Assembly (NCBI RefSeq): GCF_900141745.1
Contig: NZ_FSRM01000002.1
Coordinates: 2,604,001-2,668,000 of the forward strand
Source of the DNA: Paraburkholderia phenazinium
Lineage (GTDB): Bacteria > Pseudomonadota > Gammaproteobacteria > Burkholderiales > Burkholderiaceae
DNA length: 64,000 nt
Direction: 5' to 3'
Part shown: piece after piece, positions 18,480 through 29,868 of the stretch
How the letters are laid out: every line of letters starts with the position of its first letter
Numbering within the stretch: the first letter of the stretch is position 1
Notes under the pieces: model-generated
Database searches by the model: none
Seen by the model: only the letters and a program-made list of their open reading frames with translations
What the model was told of the DNA's origin: nothing
Translations under genes and position numbers: made by a program

Positions 18480-18489
18480 TGTCTAGACA
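18480..18489. promoter_or_regulatory. HutC-type operator, distal site
   Basis: TGTCTAGACA is a perfect palindrome matching the GTNTANAC core known for HutC-subfamily GntR regulators. It lies 228 bases ahead of the binding-protein gene of the first amino-acid importer. Between here and the second site the 349-base gap has no gene that I can support. Confidence 0.55.
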
Positions 18490-18638: not shown

Positions 18639-18652
18639 CTTGTCTAGTCAAT
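18639..18652. promoter_or_regulatory. HutC-type operator, proximal site
   Basis: CTTGTCTAGTCAAT repeats the distal site with one changed base (TTGTCTAG-TCAA). It lies 65 bases before the binding-protein start codon, close to where a promoter is expected. Two spaced copies suggest cooperative or looped binding by the regulator encoded at 23758. Confidence 0.55.
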
Positions 18653-18716: not shown

Positions 18717-19577
18717 GTGAAGGTAAAGCGCACTACGTTGGCTAAAGCATTGATTGGCGCCGTCCTCGGCGCAGCGACCATTCTCGCGGCGCCCGTGCAG
18801 GCGAAAGACTGGAAATCGGTGACCATCGCCCTGGAAGGCAGCTACGCGCCGTGGAATCTGACGCTCCCCGGCGGCAAGCTGGGCGGCTTCGAGCCCGAAC
18901 TGGTGGCGAACCTGTGCGCGCGCATCCAGTTGCAATGCAACCTGGTCGCCCAGGACTGGGACGGCATGATTCCGGGTCTGCAGGCAGGCAAGTTCGATGT
19001 GTTGATGGACGCCATCTCGATCACGCCGGAACGCGAAAAGATCATCGCCTTCTCGCGCCCTTATGCAGCCACGCCGGCCACCTTCGCCGTGACCGATACC
19101 AAGCTGTTGCCGAAGTCCGGGCCGACCAGCGCCGTGCTCAAGCTGACGGGCGACCCGAAAACCGACCAGCCGACCGTCGACGCGTTGCGTAAGGAACTGA
19201 AGGGCAAGACCATCGGTATCCAGTCCGGCACGGTCTACACCAAGTTCATCAACGACGGCTTCAAGGACGTGGCCACGATCCGCGTCTACAAGACCTCGCC
19301 GGAGCGCGACCTCGATCTCGCAAATGGCCGTATCGACGCCTCGTTCGACGACGTGACCTACTACGCCGGCAACGTCGACAAGAAAGAGACTGCGTCGATC
19401 GTGATGGCCGGACCGAAGATCGGCGGCCCGATCTGGGGTCCGGGCGAAGGCCTCGCGTTCCGCAAGCAGGACGCCGACCTGAGGGCGAAGTTCGACACCG
19501 CAATCGCCGCGGCACTCGCCGACGGCACCGTGAAGAAGCTCTCCATGAAGTGGTTCAAGACCGACGTCACGCCTTGA
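18717..19577 (+). CDS. Polar amino-acid ABC transporter, periplasmic binding protein
   Basis: The 286-residue SBP_bac_3 protein has a signal peptide (LAKALIGAVLGAATILAAPVQA, cleavage near residue 29) and typical stretches SVTIALEGSYAPWNL, FEPELVANLCARI, DWDGMIPGLQAGKFDVLMDAISITPERE and KTIGIQSGTVYTKFI. It is closest in layout to histidine/lysine/arginine/octopine-type binding proteins. It heads a five-gene operon with two permeases, an ATPase and a histidine-ammonia-lyase-like enzyme, so its ligand is probably that enzyme's substrate, an imidazole or betaine-like amino acid. Ligand identity is inference. Confidence 0.9.
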   Translation: MKVKRTTLAKALIGAVLGAATILAAPVQAKDWKSVTIALEGSYAPWNLTLPGGKLGGFEPELVANLCARIQLQCNLVAQDWDGMIPGLQAGKFDVLMDAISITPEREKIIAFSRPYAATPATFAVTDTKLLPKSGPTSAVLKLTGDPKTDQPTVDALRKELKGKTIGIQSGTVYTKFINDGFKDVATIRVYKTSPERDLDLANGRIDASFDDVTYYAGNVDKKETASIVMAGPKIGGPIWGPGEGLAFRKQDADLRAKFDTAIAAALADGTVKKLSMKWFKTDVTP

Positions 19578-19700: not shown

Positions 19701-20423
19701 ATGACTCTTATCGGGATGCTCGGCTTCGGGCCGGATGGCTGGGGCGGCGTCGTGCTGCTGGCAGCCTTGATGACCGTCGCGCTGACGCTCGCGGCGCTCG
19801 CTGTCGGCGCGGTGTTTGGCGCACTGGTGGCGGCGGCCAAGCTGTCGCGTTTTCGCAGCTTGCGCATCGTCGGCGATTTCTACACGACGGTGTTTCGCGG
19901 CGTACCCGAACTGCTCGTGATCTATCTGTTCTATTTCGGCGGTTCGACGCTGGTGACGACCATCGGTCAGTGGTTCGGCGCCGACGGTTTTGTCGGCGTA
20001 CCGCCTTTCGTCATCGGCGCGCTCGCGGTAGGGATGATTTCCGGTGCGTATCAGGCCGAGGTTTACCGCGCGGCCGTGCTGGCGGTCTCCCGCGGCGAGC
20101 TTGAGGCGGCCCGTTCGATCGGCATGTCCACGCTGACGATGGCCCGTCGCATTCTGATTCCGCAGGTGTTGCGCTTCGCATTGCCAGGCATCGGCAATGT
20201 ATGGCAACTGAGCTTGAAGGATTCCGCGCTGATCTCGGTCACCGGCCTTGCCGAACTGCTGCGCGCGAGCCAGATAGCGGCAGGCTCGACCCATCAGTAT
20301 TTCACCTTCTTCGTCGTGGGCGGCGGCTTGTATCTGCTGATGACGAGCATCTCCAACCGGATCTTCAATCACGCGGAAGCGCGTGTGGGCCGGTCCTTCC
20401 GCCGCAATTTCGCGCGCAACTGA
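19701..20423 (+). CDS. Amino-acid ABC transporter permease (HisQ-like)
   Basis: The 240-residue inner-membrane protein has about five helices, the family entry FYTTVFRGVPELLVIYLFYF and the ATPase-contacting EAA loop ELEAARSIGMSTLTMARRILIPQVLRFALPG. It is the HisQ/ArtQ-type partner of the second permease, whose gene starts 15 bases later. AGGAG-rich sequence precedes the ATG. Confidence 0.9.
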   Translation: MTLIGMLGFGPDGWGGVVLLAALMTVALTLAALAVGAVFGALVAAAKLSRFRSLRIVGDFYTTVFRGVPELLVIYLFYFGGSTLVTTIGQWFGADGFVGVPPFVIGALAVGMISGAYQAEVYRAAVLAVSRGELEAARSIGMSTLTMARRILIPQVLRFALPGIGNVWQLSLKDSALISVTGLAELLRASQIAAGSTHQYFTFFVVGGGLYLLMTSISNRIFNHAEARVGRSFRRNFARN

Positions 20424-20438
20424 CGAGGCCGGGTCATC

Positions 20439-21200
20439 ATGCATATCGACTTCGATTTCCTGCTCGACACGCTGCGCCAGTTGTTTGCCGCGGTGCCGAC
20501 CACGCTCGGACTGTTCTTTTCTTCGCTGGTGCTGGGCGGTCTGCTGTCGCTCGTGATCGTCACGATGCGTGTGTCGCCGCACTGGCTGCCGAACCGCTTT
20601 GCGCGTGCTTACATCCTTGTGTTTCGCGGCTCGCCACTGCTGATCCAGATGTTCCTTGTGTATTACGGGCTCGGCCAGTTCGGTGTGATCCGCGAGAGCT
20701 TCCTGTGGCCGGTGCTGCGCGAACCGTATATGTGTGCGGTGCTGTCACTGGCATTGTGTACGGCCGGCTACACCGCCGAGATCATCCGTGGCGGCCTGAT
20801 GGCCGTGCCGGTCGGACAGATCGAAGCGGGTTATGCGATCGGCCTGTCGGGCTTCGCATTGCTGCGCAGGGTGATCGGCCCGATTGCGTTGCGGCAGTGT
20901 CTCCCTGCGTATTCGACCGAGGCCGTGCTGCTCGTGAAGTCGACCGCGCTCGCGAGTCTCGTCACCGTGTGGGAAGTGACCGGCGTCGCGCAGCAGATCA
21001 TCCAGCAGACCTATCGGACTACTGAGGTGTTTATCTGCGCTGCGTTGATCTATCTGTTCCTGAATTTCATCATTGTGCGTCTGCTGGGGCTGCTCGAAGT
21101 ACGGCTGTCGCGCCATCTGCGCGCGGCGCCCGCTCAAGCCGCAACGCGCCCGGTTCCGGCCGCCACCGAAGCACGCCAAACCCCTCGGGCGGCACCTTGA
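20439..21200 (+). CDS. Amino-acid ABC transporter permease (HisM-like)
   Basis: The 253-residue partner permease shows [22 protein letters not shown] and the EAA loop [32 protein letters not shown]. It should form a heterodimer with the preceding permease. The C-terminal 25 residues are Ala/Pro/Arg-rich and not part of the transport fold. The ATPase gene starts 34 bases downstream. Confidence 0.9.
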
Positions 21201-21234
21201 ACGGCCACTCGTCCTGGATAGTCTGGAGAATCAA

Positions 21235-22026
21235 ATGAACGCTACGGCACCCGTTGCATTGTCGGTCAAGAACATTCACAAGTCGTTCGGCGAGCATCAC
21301 GTTCTGAAGGGCATCTCGCTCGACGCGCATGAAGGCGACGTGGTCTCGATCCTTGGCGCCAGCGGCTCCGGCAAGAGCACTTTCCTGCGCTGCCTGAACC
21401 TGCTGGAGACACCGGACGACGGTTCGGTCGCGCTGGCCGGTGAAGAACTGAAAATGAAGCGCCGTGGCGACGGCAAGCTGCAACCAAGCGACCGCCGCCA
21501 GGTGGACCGCATCCGTTCGCAACTTGGCATGGTGTTCCAGAACTTCAATCTCTGGTCGCATATGACAGTCCTCGACAATCTGATCGAAGGTCCGATGCGC
21601 GTGCAAAAGCGCAGCCGCGCGGAAGCCGTCGAAGAGGCCGAAGCGTTGCTCGCCAAAGTCGGTCTGGCGGAAAAGCGCGGCCACTATCCTGCGCACCTGT
21701 CGGGCGGTCAGCAGCAGCGCGTGGCGATCGCCCGGGCGCTGGCCATGCATCCGAAGGTCATGCTGTTCGATGAACCGACTTCGGCGCTCGATCCGGAACT
21801 GGTGGGCGAAGTCTTGCGGGTGATGCGCTCGCTGGCGGAGGAGGGCCGCACGATGCTGGTGGTCACGCACGAGATGGGCTTTGCCCGCCATGTGTCGAAC
21901 CGCGTGATGTTCCTGCATCAGGGCGAAGTCGAAGCTGACGGCACGCCGGACGAGGTGTTCGGCGATCTCAAGTCCGATCGCTTCAGGCAATTCGTCTCGA
22001 GCCACCACCATCGCACTACGAACTGA
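21235..22026 (+). CDS. Amino-acid ABC transporter ATP-binding protein (HisP/GlnQ-like)
   Basis: The 263-residue ATPase has Walker [11 protein letters not shown]-loop [14 protein letters not shown], signature [16 protein letters not shown], Walker [17 protein letters not shown] and H-loop [12 protein letters not shown], all as in HisP. The start MNATAPVAL replaces a longer frame overlapping the permease. It ends 8 bases before the lyase-like gene, so importer and enzyme are one transcription unit. Confidence 0.93.
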
Positions 22027-22034
22027 GTATCGTC

Positions 22035-23660
22035 ATGGCCGTTATCCGTTCCGATCGTCCTCTGGACTGGCGTCAGATCGCGGCGGTCGCCGCGGGTGAG
22101 CCGCTTGAGCTTTCCGCCGATGCGCGCGCGCGCATTTCGGCGGCCCACGTGCTTGTCGAACAGATCGTCGAACGCGGCATTCGCGCCTATGGCGTGAACA
22201 CCGGCGTGGGCGCGCTGTGCGATGTGATCGTTTCGCCATCCGAACAACGCACCCTGTCGCGCAACATCCTGATGAGTCATGCCGTGGGTGTCGGCACGCC
22301 GCTCGGCGCCGCGGAAACGCGGGCGATTATCGCTGCGGCCGTCAACAACTTTGCTCACGGACATTCGGGTATCCGGCTTGCCGTCGCAGAGCGGCTGGTG
22401 ACGCTGCTCGACGCCGGCTGCCTGCCCGAGGTGCCGGCGTTCGGCTCGGTCGGCTACCTGAGCCATATGGCGCATATCGCGCTCGTGTGTATCGGCGAGG
22501 GTCATGCGCACTACCGCGGCGAGCGTCTCAGCGGGCGTGAAGCGCTACAGCGGCTCGGACTCGAACCGCTCGTGCTCGACGCAAAAGAGGGGCTCAGCCT
22601 GGTCAACGGTACGCCCTGCGTGACAGGACTTGCGGCGCTGGCGCTTGCGCGCGCCGGGCGGCTGCTCGACTGGACCGACGTGGTCGCGGCCATGAGCTTC
22701 GAAAACCTGCGCGGCCAACTGGTTGCTTTTGATGCCGAATCGTTGGCGTTGAGGATTTCACCGGGCCTGAGTCTGGTCGGCGAAAGAATGCGCAGCGCGC
22801 TTGCCGATAGCGGCATACTCGCAGCGGCGATCGGGCGGCGCACCCAGGACCCGCTCAGCATGCGCACCATTCCCCATGTGCATGGCGCGGCCCGCGACGT
22901 CTTCAGCGCAACCGCGGAAGTCGTCAATCGCGAACTCGCTTCAATCACCGACAATCCGATCGTTGCCGGCACGCCCGAAGAGCCGCGCGTCTATTCGCAG
23001 GCCCATGCCGTTGGCGCTTCGATTGCGCTGGCGATGGATAGCCTTGCTACGGCTATCGCGCAGGTGGCGGCGATGGCGGAGCGGCGGCTCGACCGCCTCG
23101 TCAATCCGCTGGTGAGCGGCTTGCCGGCGTTTCTTGCCGAGCCGGGCGGCACCTGTTCGGGCTTCATGATTGCGCAGTACACCGCGGCTTCGCTGGTGGC
23201 GCAGAACCGGCGCCTCGCCATGCCCGCTAGCCTCGACGGCGGGATCACATCCGGCCTGCAGGAAGACCATTTGTGTCACGCGACGCCGGCGGCGCTCAAG
23301 GCGCTGGAGATCGTCGACAACGCTGGCCGTATCGTCGCCATCGAACTGCTGGCAGCGGCTCAGGCTTACGATCTGCAAATGCTCGATGCCCCGCGCGCGC
23401 CGTACACCGATTCCTTGTGGCGACGCGTGCGCAGCGCCGTGCCGACCTATCGCGACGACCGGCCGCTCGCCGAGGACATGGCGCTGGCATTCCGTATCAT
23501 TGCCGACACAGCGCCGCCGCCGCTACCGGACCCGGGTAAGATGCGGCCTGCAACCGTTGGCACCGGAGCGGACACTGCCTATCCACCGGTTGCCGGCGCG
23601 AGCCCTGCAGCACCCACGACGGTTGCGATCGCTGCTTGCGATCTGCAATCGGCGGCGTGA
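22035..23660 (+). CDS. Histidine/phenylalanine ammonia-lyase-like protein lacking the MIO triad
   Basis: The 541-residue protein is clearly of the HAL/PAL fold: YGVNTGVG at 52-59, SHAVGVG at 81-87, HSGIR at 110-114, EGLSLVNGT at 185-193, QDPLSMR at 271-277 and LQEDH at 408-412. However, where active lyases have GSVGASGDLAPL, whose Ala-Ser-Gly cyclises to the MIO cofactor, this protein has GSVGYLSHMAH (137-147): the triad is absent and about three residues are lost. The tyrosine after QDP is also replaced by Leu274. It therefore cannot use the normal mechanism. MIO-less HAL-fold lyases are known (ergothionase, which eliminates trimethylamine from ergothioneine), so a lyase acting on a betaine or histidine derivative is plausible. 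The last 45 residues are a Pro/Ala-rich tail. Confidence 0.75.
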   Translation: MAVIRSDRPLDWRQIAAVAAGEPLELSADARARISAAHVLVEQIVERGIRAYGVNTGVGALCDVIVSPSEQRTLSRNILMSHAVGVGTPLGAAETRAIIAAAVNNFAHGHSGIRLAVAERLVTLLDAGCLPEVPAFGSVGYLSHMAHIALVCIGEGHAHYRGERLSGREALQRLGLEPLVLDAKEGLSLVNGTPCVTGLAALALARAGRLLDWTDVVAAMSFENLRGQLVAFDAESLALRISPGLSLVGERMRSALADSGILAAAIGRRTQDPLSMRTIPHVHGAARDVFSATAEVVNRELASITDNPIVAGTPEEPRVYSQAHAVGASIALAMDSLATAIAQVAAMAERRLDRLVNPLVSGLPAFLAEPGGTCSGFMIAQYTAASLVAQNRRLAMPASLDGGITSGLQEDHLCHATPAALKALEIVDNAGRIVAIELLAAAQAYDLQMLDAPRAPYTDSLWRRVRSAVPTYRDDRPLAEDMALAFRIIADTAPPPLPDPGKMRPATVGTGADTAYPPVAGASPAAPTTVAIAACDLQSAA

Positions 23661-23757: not shown

Positions 23758-24540
23758 ATGAACATAGACAACGCGCCATTCGAAACGACCGAGGGCAGTC
23801 CTCGCCAGGTTGCCGAAGCGTCAGCAAAAAATAACGCACAGGAACCTGCAAAAGCGACGCCGGCCTATCAGCAGATCAAGCGCTACGTCGTGAAGCGGAT
23901 TGCCGAAGGCGACTGGAAACCGGGGGGGCTGATTCCATCGGAGACCGAACTGGTCAAGGAGTTCGGCGTGGCGCGCATGACCGTGTCGCGCGCGCTGCGC
24001 GAGCTGACCACCGAGCGGGTATTGACCCGCGTGCAAGGGTCCGGCACGTTCGTTGCGCCGCAGCGCTACGAATCGACGGTACTCGAGATTCGCAATATCG
24101 CGGACGAGATTGCTGCGCGCGGCCATCGGCATATGGCGCGCGTGCTGACGCTCGAACCGAGCGACGATCCGGAGGCGCTCGATGCACTCGGTCTGTCTGC
24201 TGGACCGGCGTTTCATTCGCGCATCGTGCACTGCGAAGAAGGCGAGCCGATTCAGTACGAAGACCGCTACGTCAATCCCAAGGTATTCCCCGAGTATCTG
24301 CAACAGGACTTCACGGCCGAAACGCCGAATCACTACATGGTGCGGCTCGCGCCGATCCAGCGCGCCGAGTTTCGCATCTATGCGCAAAAGCCTGACGCGC
24401 ACGTGCGCAAGCATCTGCTGATGGAGATCGGCGAGCCGTGCCTGCTGTTGTGGCGCCGCACCTGGGTGGGCGTTGCGGTGGCGACCTCGGTGCGGTTGTG
24501 GCATCCGGCGTCGCGCTTCCATCTGGCGGGTAACGTTTGA
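23758..24540 (+). CDS. GntR-family regulator, HutC subfamily (first)
   Basis: The 260-residue protein has a winged helix at about residues 30-100 (YQQIKRYVVKRIAEGDWKPG, SETELVKEFGVARMTVSRAL, VLTRVQGSGTFVA) and a UTRA ligand domain with the HutC-type EDRYVNPKVFPEYLQQDF. It follows the lyase-like gene by 97 bases on the same strand and probably controls that operon through the GTCTAGAC sites upstream of it. A GTG two codons earlier (23752), with GAGG at 23743-23746, is an alternative start. The effector may be an imidazole acid such as urocanate or thiourocanate. Confidence 0.88.
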   Translation: MNIDNAPFETTEGSPRQVAEASAKNNAQEPAKATPAYQQIKRYVVKRIAEGDWKPGGLIPSETELVKEFGVARMTVSRALRELTTERVLTRVQGSGTFVAPQRYESTVLEIRNIADEIAARGHRHMARVLTLEPSDDPEALDALGLSAGPAFHSRIVHCEEGEPIQYEDRYVNPKVFPEYLQQDFTAETPNHYMVRLAPIQRAEFRIYAQKPDAHVRKHLLMEIGEPCLLLWRRTWVGVAVATSVRLWHPASRFHLAGNV

Positions 24541-24591: not shown

Positions 24592-25437
24592 TCACCCCTG
24601 GCGCTGCGAGATGTCCGGCGTGAACCGGCAGCCCAGCCGGTAGCGTGAGCCCGGATGAACGAAGCGGGCGAACGTCACGGCTACGCCGCTCGTCCACGTG
24701 CGGCGCACCAGCGTCAGACACGGCTCTTCGACGCGGATTTCCAGCAGCGCGGCTTCGGCAGGCGTCGAGAGGCCTGCATCCACGACATGTTCGACGTCAT
24801 GCGCCGGCACGACGTTGTAGAGATACTCGGATGGGCGGATCGCCGCGAAGTCCTGCTGCAAAAACTCCGGCGCGGTGGCCGGATTGACGTAGCGGTCCTC
24901 GAGTTGCACCGGCAGGCCGTTCTCGCGATGTACGCAGATCACATGAAACACCGAAGCACCCGGCGCCAGCCCCAATGCATTGGATACCACCACAGGCGCG
25001 GTTTCGCGTTGCTTCAGCAGCGTTTCGTAGGTGTACTCATGACCGCGCGAGCGGATCTCGTCGCCGATATGGGCGATCATCAGCAGGGTGGATTGCGGTT
25101 TCGCCTCGGCGACGAAAGTGCCCACGCCCGACACCCGCGTGACGAGCCCTTCGTCGGCGAGCTCGCGCAGCGCGCGGTTGACTGTCATGCGCGAGACGCC
25201 CAGTTCGGCGACGAGGTCGAGTTCGGACGGGATGCGGTCGCCGGGTTGCCGCGCACCTGATTCGATGGTGCGGCGAATATGGCTTTTGACCTGTTCGTAG
25301 CGCGCAGTCGGATGGTCGGGCATGTCGAGCGCACTGCCAGCCGCGCCAGCCGCAGCGCTGGCGGTCGCGGCAGCGGCGCTCGCAGAAACGCGCGTTGCCG
25401 GCATACGGCCAGTACCGCGGGCGGCGCGCGCGGTCAT
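24592..25437 (-). CDS. GntR-family regulator, HutC subfamily (second)
   Basis: The 281-residue protein has an Ala/Ser-rich leader (residues 1-40), a winged helix ([54 protein letters not shown]) and a UTRA domain with [19 protein letters not shown] and [19 protein letters not shown], close to bona fide HutC. Its ATG overlaps the ATPase stop codon (ATGA), so it is the last gene of the second importer operon. The GTATATAC sites at 28661 and 28771 are its likely operators. It shares the UTRA family with the first regulator but the two read different operators. Confidence 0.88.
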
Positions 25438-26306
25438 GCTGGGTCCGCCTCGCCAGCGTCCTGGGTCCAGAAGGCGTTGCGGTCGAAGTAATTCTGCAGG
25501 AACTGGCGCAGGCGCGGCTGGCCCGCATCGTGAAAGACGTCGCGCGGTTTGCCTTCCACGGCAATGCGGCCCTGATCGATAAACACGACCTTGTCGGCCA
25601 CCTGGGCGGCAAAGCCCATTTCGTGCGTGACGACGGCCATCGTCATGCCGTCGCGTGCGAGTTGTTTCATTACCTGCAGCACCTCGCCGACCAGTTCAGG
25701 ATCGAGCGCCGAGGTGGGTTCGTCGAACAGCATGATGTGCGGCTCCATGGCGAGCGCTCGCGCAATCGCCACGCGTTGCTGCTGGCCGCCCGACAGTTTG
25801 GCCGGATGCGCATCCGCCTTGTGCGCAAGCCCGACCGTCTCCAGCATGGTATTGGCGCGACGCCGCGCATCGTCGCGCGAAAGATGCTGCACTCGCAACA
25901 ACGCCTCCATCACATTGCCGAGCGCTGTCATATGCGGCCACAGGTTGAACTGCTGGAACACCATGCCGACATTGCGCCGCACGCGGTTGATTTCGCCCTG
26001 CGATGCGCGTACGCGTTTGCCGTTGCGCTCGGTATAGCCGAGCAGTTCGCCTTCGATGCGTACGTCACCCTGATCGTAGGTTTCAAGCGCGGCGAGACAG
26101 CGTAATAGCGTACTTTTGCCTGAACCCGACGGTCCGATGATGCAGACCACCTCGGAGCGGGCAATCTGCAGGTCGACACCGCGCAGGACTTCGACTTCGC
26201 CGAAGCGTTTGCGCAGGTCGCGCACGTCGATCAGCGATGCGCTGTTCGCGTGTCCTGCAGCGGCGGCGGTGGGGGCGGAGGTCGGCATATCGGCAAGGGC
26301 GTTCAT
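25434..26306 (-). CDS. Second amino-acid ABC transporter, ATP-binding protein
   Basis: The 290-residue ATPase has Walker [11 protein letters not shown]-loop [14 protein letters not shown], signature [16 protein letters not shown], Walker [17 protein letters not shown] and H-loop [12 protein letters not shown]. It starts with a 25-residue Ala-rich leader not found in the first ATPase. It belongs to the HisP/GlnQ group and energises the two permeases upstream in the operon (spacing 19 bases to the nearer one). The chosen start is MNALADMP. Confidence 0.92.
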
Positions 26307-26325
26307 CGATCGGTCCAATGTGGGG

Positions 26326-26988
26326 TCATGCCATGAAGCGCGCAATCCGGGCTTCGGCCCACATGCCGGCGCGCGAGGTGATCTCGACCAGTGCGAGATA
26401 GCAGACGCACAGCGCCAGCAGCGTTTCGACAAATGCGAAGGTGGCCGAACCGATACCGGTCAGGACAAAGGTAAGTTCAGGCACGGTGACGATCGACAGC
26501 ACGGCGGTCTCCTTGCTGAGCACGATGATCAGATTGGTGAGCGCCGGGACGATCAGCACGAGCATCTGCGGCACCTGAATGCGTAGCACGGCTTGCCAGC
26601 GCGACAGCCCGAGACAGGACGCCGCTTCCAGGTGGCCGCGCGGCACGGACTGGAAGCCGGAGCGGAACGCCTCGGCAAAATACGCGCTGCCGTACAGGCC
26701 GAGGCCGAGCACACCGGCGGTCATCGGTTCAAGCGTGAGGCCGAACGAAGGGCCGCCGTAATACAGCAGAAATAGCTGCACGAGAAACGGCGTGCCGCGA
26801 AAGAGTTCGATATAGAAGCGCAGCAGCCCGCGCACCCAGCGTCCGCAAAACAGCTGCAGCACCGCGATCAGAAAGCCGATCAGCATGCCGATGACGACAC
26901 CCGCCACCCACGTGCCGATGGTCGTCGCGAGACCCGCTGCAATCGGCTGCAGGTTGTGGGTGATGACGGTGGGATCGAATTGCTGCAT
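26326..26988 (-). CDS. Second amino-acid ABC transporter, permease A
   Basis: The 220-residue permease shows [23 protein letters not shown] and the EAA loop [25 protein letters not shown]. About five membrane helices are predicted. It is the second permease gene of the operon, 45 bases after permease B, and the pair should form the transmembrane channel for the second importer. Confidence 0.9.
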
Positions 26989-27033
26989 CGCTGGGGGCTC
27001 GGGCTTGGTTTCAGTGCTGTCGCGGTGGCATCT

Positions 27034-27693
27034 TCAGGCGTGCTGCAAGCGGTGCTCGGCACCGTGCGCAACCAGCGCGAGCGCGCCGCAGATGACGAAA
27101 TAGATCAGTCCCGCAGCAACATATGCTTCTAGCGGCCGATAAGTGCTGGCGGCAATGTTCTGCGCGGTGCGTGTGAGTTCCGCCACGCCGACCACCGAGA
27201 TCAGCGACGACGCCTTGATCAGCAGCACCATCTCGTTGACGAGCGACGGCAGTGTGAGGCGGAACGCCTGCGGCACCTGGATCCGGCGCAGCATGTCGAA
27301 GGGCGACATGCCGAGCATGCGCGCTGCTTCGATGTGCCCAGGTGGAATGCTCAGAAAACCGCCTCGCAGAATCTCGGCGATATACGAGGCCGAGCACAAC
27401 GACACCGCGCTGATCGCTGCAGCGAGCGGCGATACGTTGATGCCGACGAACGGCAGCAGGTAGTAGACGAGCAGCAGTTGCACGAGCATCGGCACGCCGC
27501 GAAAGAAAAACACGTACGCACCGCCGAACATGCGCGCGGCACGATGCGCCGAGAGCCGGGCCGAGCACACGGCGATCGCGACAAAGAAGCCGATCACGAG
27601 CCCCGTCAGCGAAATGCCGACCGTGGCGATGGCCGCGTGCAGCAGCAGCGGCAGCCCCTGCAGAAAGACAGTCATGCTGAACATGTGGTGCAC
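27034..27693 (-). CDS. Second amino-acid ABC transporter, permease B
   Basis: The 219-residue permease has AYVFFFRGVPMLVQLLLVYYLL and the EAA loop HIEAARMLGMSPFDMLRRIQVPQAFRLTLPS, typical of polar amino-acid importers. It follows the binding-protein gene by 64 bases on the same strand. Either of two Met codons near the start (MHHM) could be used. Confidence 0.9.
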   Translation of the reverse strand: MHHMFSMTVFLQGLPLLLHAAIATVGISLTGLVIGFFVAIAVCSARLSAHRAARMFGGAYVFFFRGVPMLVQLLLVYYLLPFVGINVSPLAAAISAVSLCSASYIAEILRGGFLSIPPGHIEAARMLGMSPFDMLRRIQVPQAFRLTLPSLVNEMVLLIKASSLISVVGVAELTRTAQNIAASTYRPLEAYVAAGLIYFVICGALALVAHGAEHRLQHA

Positions 27694-27757
27694 CCGCTAG
27701 AAGAGCCGGCGAACCGCTGCGGCATGACGCGTGTCCGGCAGCGGTTCGCTCAGTTCA

Positions 27758-28582
27758 TCAGTAGTTCGGCGTGGGCAGCGTGGTCGGCGCATCCATCGCG
27801 ACGCCGAACCACTTCTTCTGCAACGCGGCGAGACGTCCATCGTCGTGCATCTTGATCAGCGCGGCGTTGAAGGCGTCGTCGAGCGACTTGCTGTCCGGGT
27901 CTTTGCGCATGCAGTAAGCAAAGTACACCTTGGCGCCGAACGGCGGCTGCACAACCGCAAAGGTCTCGGGCCGCTGTTTCGCCACATAGGCGATGTTCGT
28001 CATCGAGTTCGCCACGGCGGCAATCCGGCCGGCAGCGAGGTCGGCGTACGCCTGGTTGTTGTCGACGTATTCGCGGACTTCAGGCGGCTTGGGCAGCGTC
28101 GCGATATAGGCCTTCAACTGATCGAGTTGCGCCGAGCCCTTGCCGGCGCCCACGGTCTTGCCGGCGATGTCCGACGATTGCTTCAGCGACGTGTCGTTGG
28201 CGCGCTTGAGCAGCGCGTCGGTGGCGTCGGCGATGGGCAGTGTGTACGTATAGCGTTCCATACGCGCTTTCGTCACGGTCAGCGGCCCGCCCACCATGTC
28301 GAACTTGCCGGCTTCGAGACCGGGCAACACGCTCGGCCAGGGCAGATCGATAAAGCGGACCTTCACGCCCAGTTCCTTCCCGATCTCGGCGAACAGGTCC
28401 TTGTTGAAACCGGCTTGCTGGCCGTTCTCGAGAAAGTCGAACGGCGCGAACTGCATTTCTGTACCGACGACAAGCTCGCCCGCCTGCTTGACCTTGGCGA
28501 GCTGATCCGCGTGGGCAGCAACGCTTGCTGTACACAATGCCAACATCACTAAACGACACTTCCAGCCTGCAAGGATGCTCAT
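27758..28582 (-). CDS. Second amino-acid ABC transporter, periplasmic binding protein
   Basis: The 274-residue SBP_bac_3 protein has a signal peptide (CRLVMLALCTASVAAHA, cleavage near residue 25) and the fold markers LVVGTEMQFAPFDFLENGQ, LPWPSVLPGLEAGKFDMVGGPLTVTKAR and YVDNNQAYADLAAGRIAAV. It differs strongly from the first binding protein, so a different ligand is likely. It heads the minus-strand operon and is divergent from the dioxygenase and FAD-oxidase genes, with an operator on each side of the shared promoter region. Confidence 0.9.
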   Translation of the reverse strand: MSILAGWKCRLVMLALCTASVAAHADQLAKVKQAGELVVGTEMQFAPFDFLENGQQAGFNKDLFAEIGKELGVKVRFIDLPWPSVLPGLEAGKFDMVGGPLTVTKARMERYTYTLPIADATDALLKRANDTSLKQSSDIAGKTVGAGKGSAQLDQLKAYIATLPKPPEVREYVDNNQAYADLAAGRIAAVANSMTNIAYVAKQRPETFAVVQPPFGAKVYFAYCMRKDPDSKSLDDAFNAALIKMHDDGRLAALQKKWFGVAMDAPTTLPTPNY

Positions 28583-28660
28583 ACGATTCTCCGGTTGGCA
28601 AAGCGGTGTCGCGCGGCACGCAATGGAGCAGGCGCGCGCTATTGATCGGTATGCGAGGCA

Positions 28661-28668
28661 GTATATAC
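28661..28668. promoter_or_regulatory. HutC-type operator near the second importer
   Basis: GTATATAC is a perfect palindrome of the GTNTANAC class, 79 bases before the binding-protein start. It is the importer-side copy of a pair. Confidence 0.55.
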
Positions 28669-28770
28669 CGCACCTTTTGCGCGAAATAAATAATCGCATT
28701 GTGCACTGCAAGGCAAGCCTGACAATGGTGAGTCCGAGCAGAAACGTCGCTTGCGAAGGTGCTTTTGGCG

Positions 28771-28778
28771 GTATATAC
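28771..28778. promoter_or_regulatory. HutC-type operator near the dioxygenase
   Basis: An identical GTATATAC palindrome, 110 bases from the first copy and 106 bases before the dioxygenase start codon. The 301-base divergent gap (28583-28883) holds these two sites and no gene. The likely ligand is the second GntR regulator. Confidence 0.55.
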
Positions 28779-28883
28779 AACTGAGAACGCGCGTAGCGCC
28801 CGGCTCGCTTTGCAAGGTGTTCGAAGTAAAGGCCGTGCCCGCATTCCTCAGTCATATCCATCTTGCTCACCAGGAGCATTGCG

Positions 28884-29868
28884 ATGCCACCTGTCACCCG
28901 CATTCCGATCATCGACTTTGCCGGGGTGCGCGCCGGCGATCCCGCGGCCCTGCAGCGCGTCGGCCGTGAGATTCACGACGCCTGCACCACGATCGGGTTT
29001 TTCTACATCGTCAACCACGGCGTGCCGCAGGCGGTGATCGATGCCGCGGAGCACGCGGCCCGCAGTTTTTTTGCGTATCCGGTCGAGACCAAGCGGCGCG
29101 TGGCGGTGAATCAGCGGCATCGAGGCTTCAATGCGCTCGGCGACGCCACCATGTACCAGGCGAAGCGGCCCGACTACAAGGAATTTTTCAGCGTCGGACT
29201 GGAGTTGCCGGAGGACGATCCCGATGTGCTCGCCGGTCAGGCATTACGCGGGCCGAACAACTGGCCGGACTTTATGCCAGCGTTACGCCCGGCGCTGTAT
29301 GGCTACTACGAAGCAGTGGCATCGTGCGGCGCGGACCTGTTGCGCGCAGTAGCGGCGGGTCTCGGCGTCGACGAACAGTTTTTTCGCGCCGCGCTATACC
29401 AAGCGGATGCAGCGTACGCAGATGGTTTATTACCCGCCGCAGCCGCCGCAATCGGATGCCGGGCAGTTCGGCGTCGCGCCGCACACCGACTACGGTTGCA
29501 TCACGTTGCTCTGGCAGGATCAGGTGGGCGGCCTGCAGGTGCGCGAAATCGCCAACGACACATGGGTGGACGCGCCGCCCGTACCCGGCAGCTTCGTCGT
29601 CAACGTTGGCGATCTGCTGGCGCGCTGGACCAATGACCGGTTTCGCTCGACGCTGCACCGCGTGATCAACGCGTCGGGCCGCGAGCGTTATTCGATCGCG
29701 ACGTTCTACGATCCGACTTACGGTGCGCTAGTCGACCCACGCGAACTCGGCACCAGCGAAGCCGACCTCAAGTATCAGCCAGTCGCGGCGGGAGACTACA
29801 TCCTCGGTCGTATCAACGACTCCATGGGTTATCGAAAGAAACTGGCGGCCCAGGGGACGACGGCATGA
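28884..29868 (+). pseudogene. Isopenicillin-N-synthase-like Fe(II) oxygenase, interrupted by a frameshift
   Basis: The reading begins at MPPVTRIPIIDF (AGGAG seven bases upstream) and follows the family through GFFYIVNHGVPQAVID and RPDYKEFFSVGLELPEDD to about 29397. The rest continues in the +1-shifted frame from RMQRTQMVYYPPQPP, through the iron ligands HTD (VAPHTDYGCITLLW) and His in STLHRVIN, to the 2-oxoglutarate-type RYSIATF. The joined protein would be about 328 residues, normal for the family. A single extra base, or two missing, around CTATACC explains the break. It may be a real mutation or a sequencing error. The stop overlaps the next gene's ATG by 4 bases, showing the operon was intact. 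Confidence 0.8.

Follow-up and report, generated by a model that had tools for sequence, protein, structure and literature searches.

Gene Organization of the Locus

The 64-kb window, i.e., the whole stretch of DNA that was analyzed, harbors a forward-strand gene cluster in which an ABC importer of the polar amino-acid type precedes a lyase gene. The importer comprises a solute-binding protein (SBP_bac_3; 18717..19577), two permeases (19701..20423 and 20439..21200), and an ATPase (21235..22026), whose start was picked by eye within an open reading frame at 21073-22026 and whose best NCBIfam model was HisP, with a score below the cut-off. Among solved sequences, the binding protein came closest to those that bind nopaline (217 bits) and octopine (207 bits). 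The lyase reading frame (22035..23660) was intact and started 8 bp past the ATPase gene, with which it would be co-transcribed. It encodes 541 aa, consisting of a core of approximately residues 1-497 and a variable tail, which the 497-aa Burkholderia members lack.

Downstream of the lyase, two HutC-family repressors are encoded, one on the forward strand (23758..24540, start set by eye) and one on the reverse strand (24592..25437). Both scored above the TIGR02018 cut-off of 220 bits (279 and 296 bits), which bears out the HutC-type regulator named in the original prediction, and they were 57% and 44% identical, respectively, to HutC of the main hut operon, which lies on a different contig of the window genome than the lyase gene. 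Directly beside this cluster, a second importer of the polar amino-acid type occupies the reverse strand (25434..28912). Its ATPase (25434-26432) and binding protein (27758-28912) were found by a Pfam scan, and its permeases (26326-26988 and 27034-27693) were named by position and visual inspection. A CGGTATATACAA site within it (28769-28780) also occurs in many Paraburkholderia relatives. The second importer is adjoined by a forward-strand gene of a 2OG-Fe(II) oxygenase (PF03171; 28863-29868) that is split across two frames, while its counterparts at L004, L008, and L023 are open frames of 375-427 aa.

A HAL-Fold Lyase Without the MIO Motif

With 504 bits to PF00221, the lyase protein has the HAL/PAL fold, and the histidine ammonia-lyase (HAL) landmarks YGVNTGVG, SHAVG, NGT, QDPLSMR, and QEDH were all recovered as predicted. 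At residues 137-147 (codons 22443..22475), where MIO enzymes carry GSVGASGDLAP, the protein reads GSVGYLSHMAH. While this part of the original prediction stood, the implied residue-by-residue replacement did not, as the alignment revealed a three-residue deletion through which GSVG-ASGD-LAPLAH of HutH is reduced to GSVG-Y---LSHMAH, with Tyr141 in place of ASGD. Relatives were compared as the best 80 of at least 514 confirmed matches; all of these 80 showed a GS[VA]GY loop, and ASG was absent from them as well as from the window protein, so that the suspected loss of MIO proved real. Across 80 rows (the window protein and 79 relatives; the fragment L064, which has the same loop, was left out of this count), G137, S138, G140, Y141, L142, H144, L274, and Y382 were invariant, and V139 was replaced by alanine in four rows (L080-L083). 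Given this invariance across 80 rows, the missing ASG is no sequencing accident. The clade is under purifying selection, with dN/dS values of 0.04-0.15 over the first 1440 bases in six comparisons with relatives. Judged from its sequence, the window protein should be unable to form MIO.

Compared with HutH of Pseudomonas putida (PDB 1b8f), the window protein not only lacks ASG/MIO through the three-residue deletion, but also carries Leu274 (codon 22854..22856) at the site of the catalytic Tyr280, in agreement with what had been claimed, and Ala325 in place of Phe329. The P. putida HAL residues Tyr53, His83, Asn195, Gln277, Arg283, Met382, and Glu414 align with Tyr52, His82, Asn191, Gln271, Arg277, Met378, and Glu410, respectively; for Tyr53, His83, Arg283, Glu414, and the others, we take the catalytic roles to be those assigned in HAL. 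All 23 clade rows retain the counterparts of the HAL base, arginine, and glutamate. A tyrosine at the HAL 280 site was found in all 18 MIO rows (17 with ASG and L147 with TSG) and in the MIO-less L100, which was excluded from these 18.

The window protein remained below the cut-off of the NCBIfam hutH equivalog TIGR01225 (456 vs. 539 bits). The window genome also encodes two proteins that do have ASG, namely its ordinary HutH (L001) and a further paralogue (L002). One MIO-less relative (L091; 4893-6419, reverse strand) passes the same cut-off (547 vs. 539 bits) although it lacks ASG, and the model therefore cannot tell MIO from MIO-less proteins.

Comparison with Ergothionase

The ergothionase of Treponema denticola (PDB 6s7j) is likewise a HAL-fold enzyme without MIO, and ergothionases are described in Burkholderia (PMC13405746). 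The window protein is 25-28% identical to 6s7j and has the positions Tyr53, His83, Leu277, Arg280, and Glu411 (T. denticola numbering) in common with it. However, the MIO-site loop is EGD in 6s7j and Y in the window protein, Lys383 and Phe326 are replaced by Tyr382 (codon 23178..23180) and Ala325, and Ser194 corresponds to Asn191. In the second tree, the Lys383 column was occupied by lysine in all 11 rows on the ergothionase side and by tyrosine in all 23 rows of the window clade; the long L120 sequence, an ergothionase-side member left out of this tree, has tyrosine there within a gappy stretch. Furthermore, the match to 6s7j was weaker than those to HALs and aminomutases, both directly (178 vs. 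287 bits) and by profile (255 vs. 413 bits). In both free trees, calculated with and without the MIO-loop columns, 6s7j was placed on a separate branch, and the window clade joined the MIO enzymes at 100/99. The partial rows L123 and L124 were not part of the first tree, and the second was calculated without L120, L111, and another 18 rows that were near-duplicates or incomplete. A single joint MIO-less clade was not rejected by AU tests (p values of 0.189 and 0.138); a loss of MIO separate from that of ergothionase would nevertheless be the favored scenario.

A survey of 150 genomes of the phylum yielded matches in 44, with 34 places below 562 bits outside the window genome. These were MIO enzymes, the window type, L100, several other MIO-less lineages (GAADL, GAGDL, CADI, and EGDL loops), and the partial L123 and L124, which were left unclassified. 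The other MIO-less lineages (L113-L122, L126, and L127, three of them in genome G055) carry the ergothionase-like lysine, save for the EGDL type (L120), and 6s7j was the best PDB match for the three that were searched (L113, L116, and L121). Four Burkholderiaceae proteins (L125, L138, L139, and L140) were 34-35% identical to 6s7j. The B. ambifaria member among them (L139) adjoins genes whose products scored as thiourocanate hydratase (1050 bits against a cut-off of 930) and thiohydantoin desulfurase (606 bits against 440), and its locus served as a positive control for an ergothionase-type neighborhood. The same contig (G219:C14) also carries L150, a gene of the window type with the same sequence as L055 of B. 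ambifaria; its longer matched stretch includes one TGA, and its frame of 521 aa is open. In the window genome, the model search gave no match for the desulfurase and no thiourocanate hydratase above the cut-off, the single match (690 vs. 930 bits) lying in the main hut operon. The proposed membership in the ergothionase family was thus not upheld, given scores nearer to MIO-containing HALs, the absence of the lysine found in all 11 ergothionase-side rows, and the pathway genes without a match above cut-off.

Hut Genes and Transporters Around the Relatives

Unlike the B. ambifaria relative of 6s7j with its thiourocanate-pathway neighbors, the window clade is linked to the hut regulon by its surroundings. 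Of 80 loci (best 80 of at least 514), 71 had one or more hut genes in the fetched flanks and the other nine had none, with HutC in 63, HutU in 12, HutF in 12, HutI in nine, HutG in eight, and HutH in two of the 80. In Caballeronia, the order is lyase-hutU-hutI-hutF-hutG, and hutU, hutI, hutF, and hutG are found downstream of the lyase at L044, L047, and L052; in Kaistia, it is hutU-hutC-hutF-importer-lyase-hutI-hutH-hutG. Similar contexts occur in Labrys, in rhizobia, and in a Pseudomonas-like hut operon; the R. leguminosarum lyase, for instance, lies near hutH, hutI, hutF, and hutC. The HutU proteins adjoining the lyase at L044 and L099 reached 946 and 986 bits for the hutU model (cut-off 375), but only 663 and 685 bits for thiourocanate hydratase (cut-off 930), and are by these scores urocanate hydratases. 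That HutC regulons often contain several HutH paralogues was noted earlier (PMC5343134).

A binding protein of the polar amino-acid type lies near the lyase in the window and in 72 of the 80 relatives (best 80 of at least 514). Other arrangements have OpuAC-type transporters beside the lyase (L078, L084, L091, L092, L093, and L096, with Pfam run on L084 and L091), and at L099 a BCCT carrier (391 bits) is encoded between hutU and the lyase. The glycine-betaine type binding proteins (OpuAC) of S. meliloti and of the Pseudomonas-like operon scored 210 and 205 bits. The S. meliloti protein, annotated as a histidine ammonia-lyase (LZK74_30615 on pSymB), belongs to the same clade, has the motif GSVGYLTHAAA, and is encoded beside hutC and hutF, but with a glycine-betaine type ABC importer of the OpuAC type instead of the SBP_bac_3 type of the window. 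In six rhizobial-type loci (L080, L082, L083, L086, L088, and L110), the lyase is directly followed by a gene annotated as solA, N-methyl-L-tryptophan oxidase (Pfam DAO).

A similar arrangement is known from Pseudomonas fluorescens SBW25, whose hut operon is described as holding hutTu, hutXWV, and, between hutU and hutH, a hutH1 that is dispensable for growth on histidine (PMC8871633). The order at L091 (hutU, NCS1 permease, OpuAC-type ABC transporter, MIO-less gene, hutH) equals this description (PMC8871633). Since L091 has an MIO-less gene in the place of hutH1, we infer that hutH1 of SBW25 also lacks MIO. The likeness is one of gene order, and the window gene itself falls in the sister subclade and is accompanied by another type of importer.

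Candidate HutC Operators

Two candidate HutC-type operators, TGTCTAGACA (18480..18489) and TGTCTAGTCA (18641..18650), precede the importer genes. Across the 64-kb window, the pattern TGTMTAKWCA, which was composed after the sites had been seen, matched these two sites and no others; both are upstream of the lyase operon. All 67 Burkholderiaceae loci, the window included, contained a site that differs by at most one letter from TTGTCTAGACAA, TTGTATATACAA, or TTGTCTATACAA at 3300-3720 bp before the lyase, i.e., upstream of the importer; as close relatives, however, these loci are not independent. With two mismatches allowed, shuffled loci gave 0.07-0.13 matches per 17.5 kb. The exact TTGTATATACAA was found in six of the 67 loci and precedes the window genome's own hutH, whose promoter carries TTGTATATACAAG and GTGTATATACAAG; TGTCTAGACA and TGTCTAGTCA are the window's variants at the place of the exact TTGTATATACAA in six relatives. 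In the Caballeronia-type loci L044, L047, L048, and L050, the exact form stands before the importer and again before the following hutU. In nine loci outside the Burkholderiaceae, no exact-form sites were found near the importer at up to two mismatches, and rhizobial loci have TTCCATATACAA in common instead. A Pseudomonas HutC site is given as TGTA-N2-TACA, with urocanate weakening the binding (PMC12977541), whereas a quite different HutC site is reported for P. aeruginosa (PMC12772324).

Proposed Function

Judged from sequence and context, the window protein is somewhat more likely than not an MIO-independent trimethylamine-lyase of hercynine (N-alpha-trimethylhistidine, histidine betaine). 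The loss of MIO would be tolerable because the leaving group is already good, as in ergothionase, and the original suggestion that trimethylamine as leaving group would account for a HAL fold managing without MIO is supported. Of the two substrates then put forward, hercynine and ergothioneine, only the former agrees with the context. Urocanate as the product is suggested by the HutC-type control and the hut neighbors, and hercynine as the substrate by the quaternary-amine type transporters, the N-methyl-handling neighbors, and the histidine-like pocket. In the proposed mechanism, hercynine would be taken up by the importer encoded just upstream, Tyr52 (HAL Tyr53) would abstract the beta proton, and Arg277 and Glu410/His82 would hold the carboxylate and the imidazole, so that trimethylamine could depart without the MIO electrophile. 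Tyr141, His144, Leu274, Ala325, and Tyr382 may rebuild the space of MIO, Tyr280, and Phe329 for the trimethylammonium group. The urocanate formed would be degraded by the ordinary hut enzymes and would relieve the HutC-type repression of the operon.

This assignment is further favored by EgtD, the hercynine synthase, which was detected in the window genome (312 bits, cut-off 291), and by the retained base, arginine, and glutamate sites despite the lack of ASG and Tyr280. Against it, the nopaline/octopine-like binding protein and the HisP-like ATPase would fit histidine or a histidine opine equally well, and HutXWV of P. fluorescens is reported to take part in histidine uptake (PMC8871633). The deviating P. 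aeruginosa HutC site (PMC12772324) and the nine of 80 loci (best 80 of at least 514) without a hut gene also count against it, as do the separation of the gene and the hut operon onto different contigs in the window genome, the occurrence of Tyr382 outside the clade, namely in L100 and in the ASG-bearing L145, and a pLDDT below 50 for residues 367-413 of the active site in the predicted structure.

In the likeliest alternative, the enzyme would act on a histidine with a different N-substituent (N-mono- or N,N-dimethylhistidine, or the histidine opine histopine) and would likewise yield urocanate. The similarity of the binding protein to nopaline- and octopine-binding proteins, the solA-annotated oxidase in six loci, and the related MIO-less L100, whose co-directional neighbors include genes for a Rieske oxygenase and an S-(hydroxymethyl)glutathione dehydrogenase, would suit it. 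On chemical reasoning, however, secondary and tertiary amines and alanine leave less readily when MIO is absent, and the betaine-type transporters in three other arrangements suggest a quaternary amine; we regard this reading as unlikely. We give still less credence to an ergothionase that converts ergothioneine to thiourocanate and trimethylamine. It would agree with the MIO-less fold and the leucine at the Tyr280 site common to the T. denticola enzyme, with the Burkholderia ergothionases, and with the unrejected joint clade; the free trees, the invariant tyrosine instead of Lys383, and the hut rather than thiourocanate neighbors speak against it, as do the window genome, with no desulfurase match and no hydratase above the cut-off, and B. 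ambifaria, where a single contig carries a gene of either kind and hydratase and desulfurase accompany the one from the ergothionase side.

That the protein is a degenerate, non-eliminating HutH paralogue, which regulates or assembles with HutH or acts as a sensor, is very unlikely in view of the low dN/dS values, the base, arginine, and glutamate kept throughout the clade, and an importer binding protein near 72 of 80 loci compared with hutH near two (best 80 of at least 514). An MIO-independent ammonia-lyase of histidine itself appears highly improbable; the histidine-like pocket residues and the hut context would match it, but ammonia departs poorly unless MIO assists. Moreover, in the window genome and in all seven others searched, a HAL-fold protein scored above 600 bits, in the range of ordinary HutH (ASG was read in the window genome and, among the seven, in L128 and L129).

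Returning to hercynine, a wider proposal, to which we attach an even chance, is a second entry into the hut pathway, in which hercynine imported by betaine- or polar-amino-acid-type carriers would be split to trimethylamine and urocanate by a separately arisen, widespread, and mis-annotated MIO-less HutH paralogue. If true, the orphan hutH1 of a model operon would gain a testable function, the glycine-betaine-type transporters in hut operons would be explained, and hercynine, an intermediate of ergothioneine synthesis, would have a bacterial route into central metabolism. Clade members annotated as histidine ammonia-lyases in Paraburkholderia, Burkholderia, Caballeronia, Pseudomonas, Sinorhizobium, and Rhizobium would then be wrongly named. 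The protein may also represent a second HAL-fold enzyme that gave up MIO because its substrate brings its own leaving group.

Apart from the window clade, an MIO-less HAL-fold variant with the loop GSVGYLGPEGH was observed at L100 (4884-6449, reverse strand) and L151 (1548-2609, reverse strand), which retains the Tyr280 and Phe329 positions. At L100, it shares one strand with the Rieske oxygenase (164 bits for VanA_C), an FAD/2Fe-2S reductase (for which no NCBIfam model, GbcB included, reached its cut-off), importer genes whose binding protein and permeases resemble those of the window type, and the S-(hydroxymethyl)glutathione dehydrogenase (711 vs. 544 bits for the cut-off), which is of the formaldehyde-detoxification type. 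Judging from these neighbors, the variant is possibly a lyase for partly demethylated histidine.
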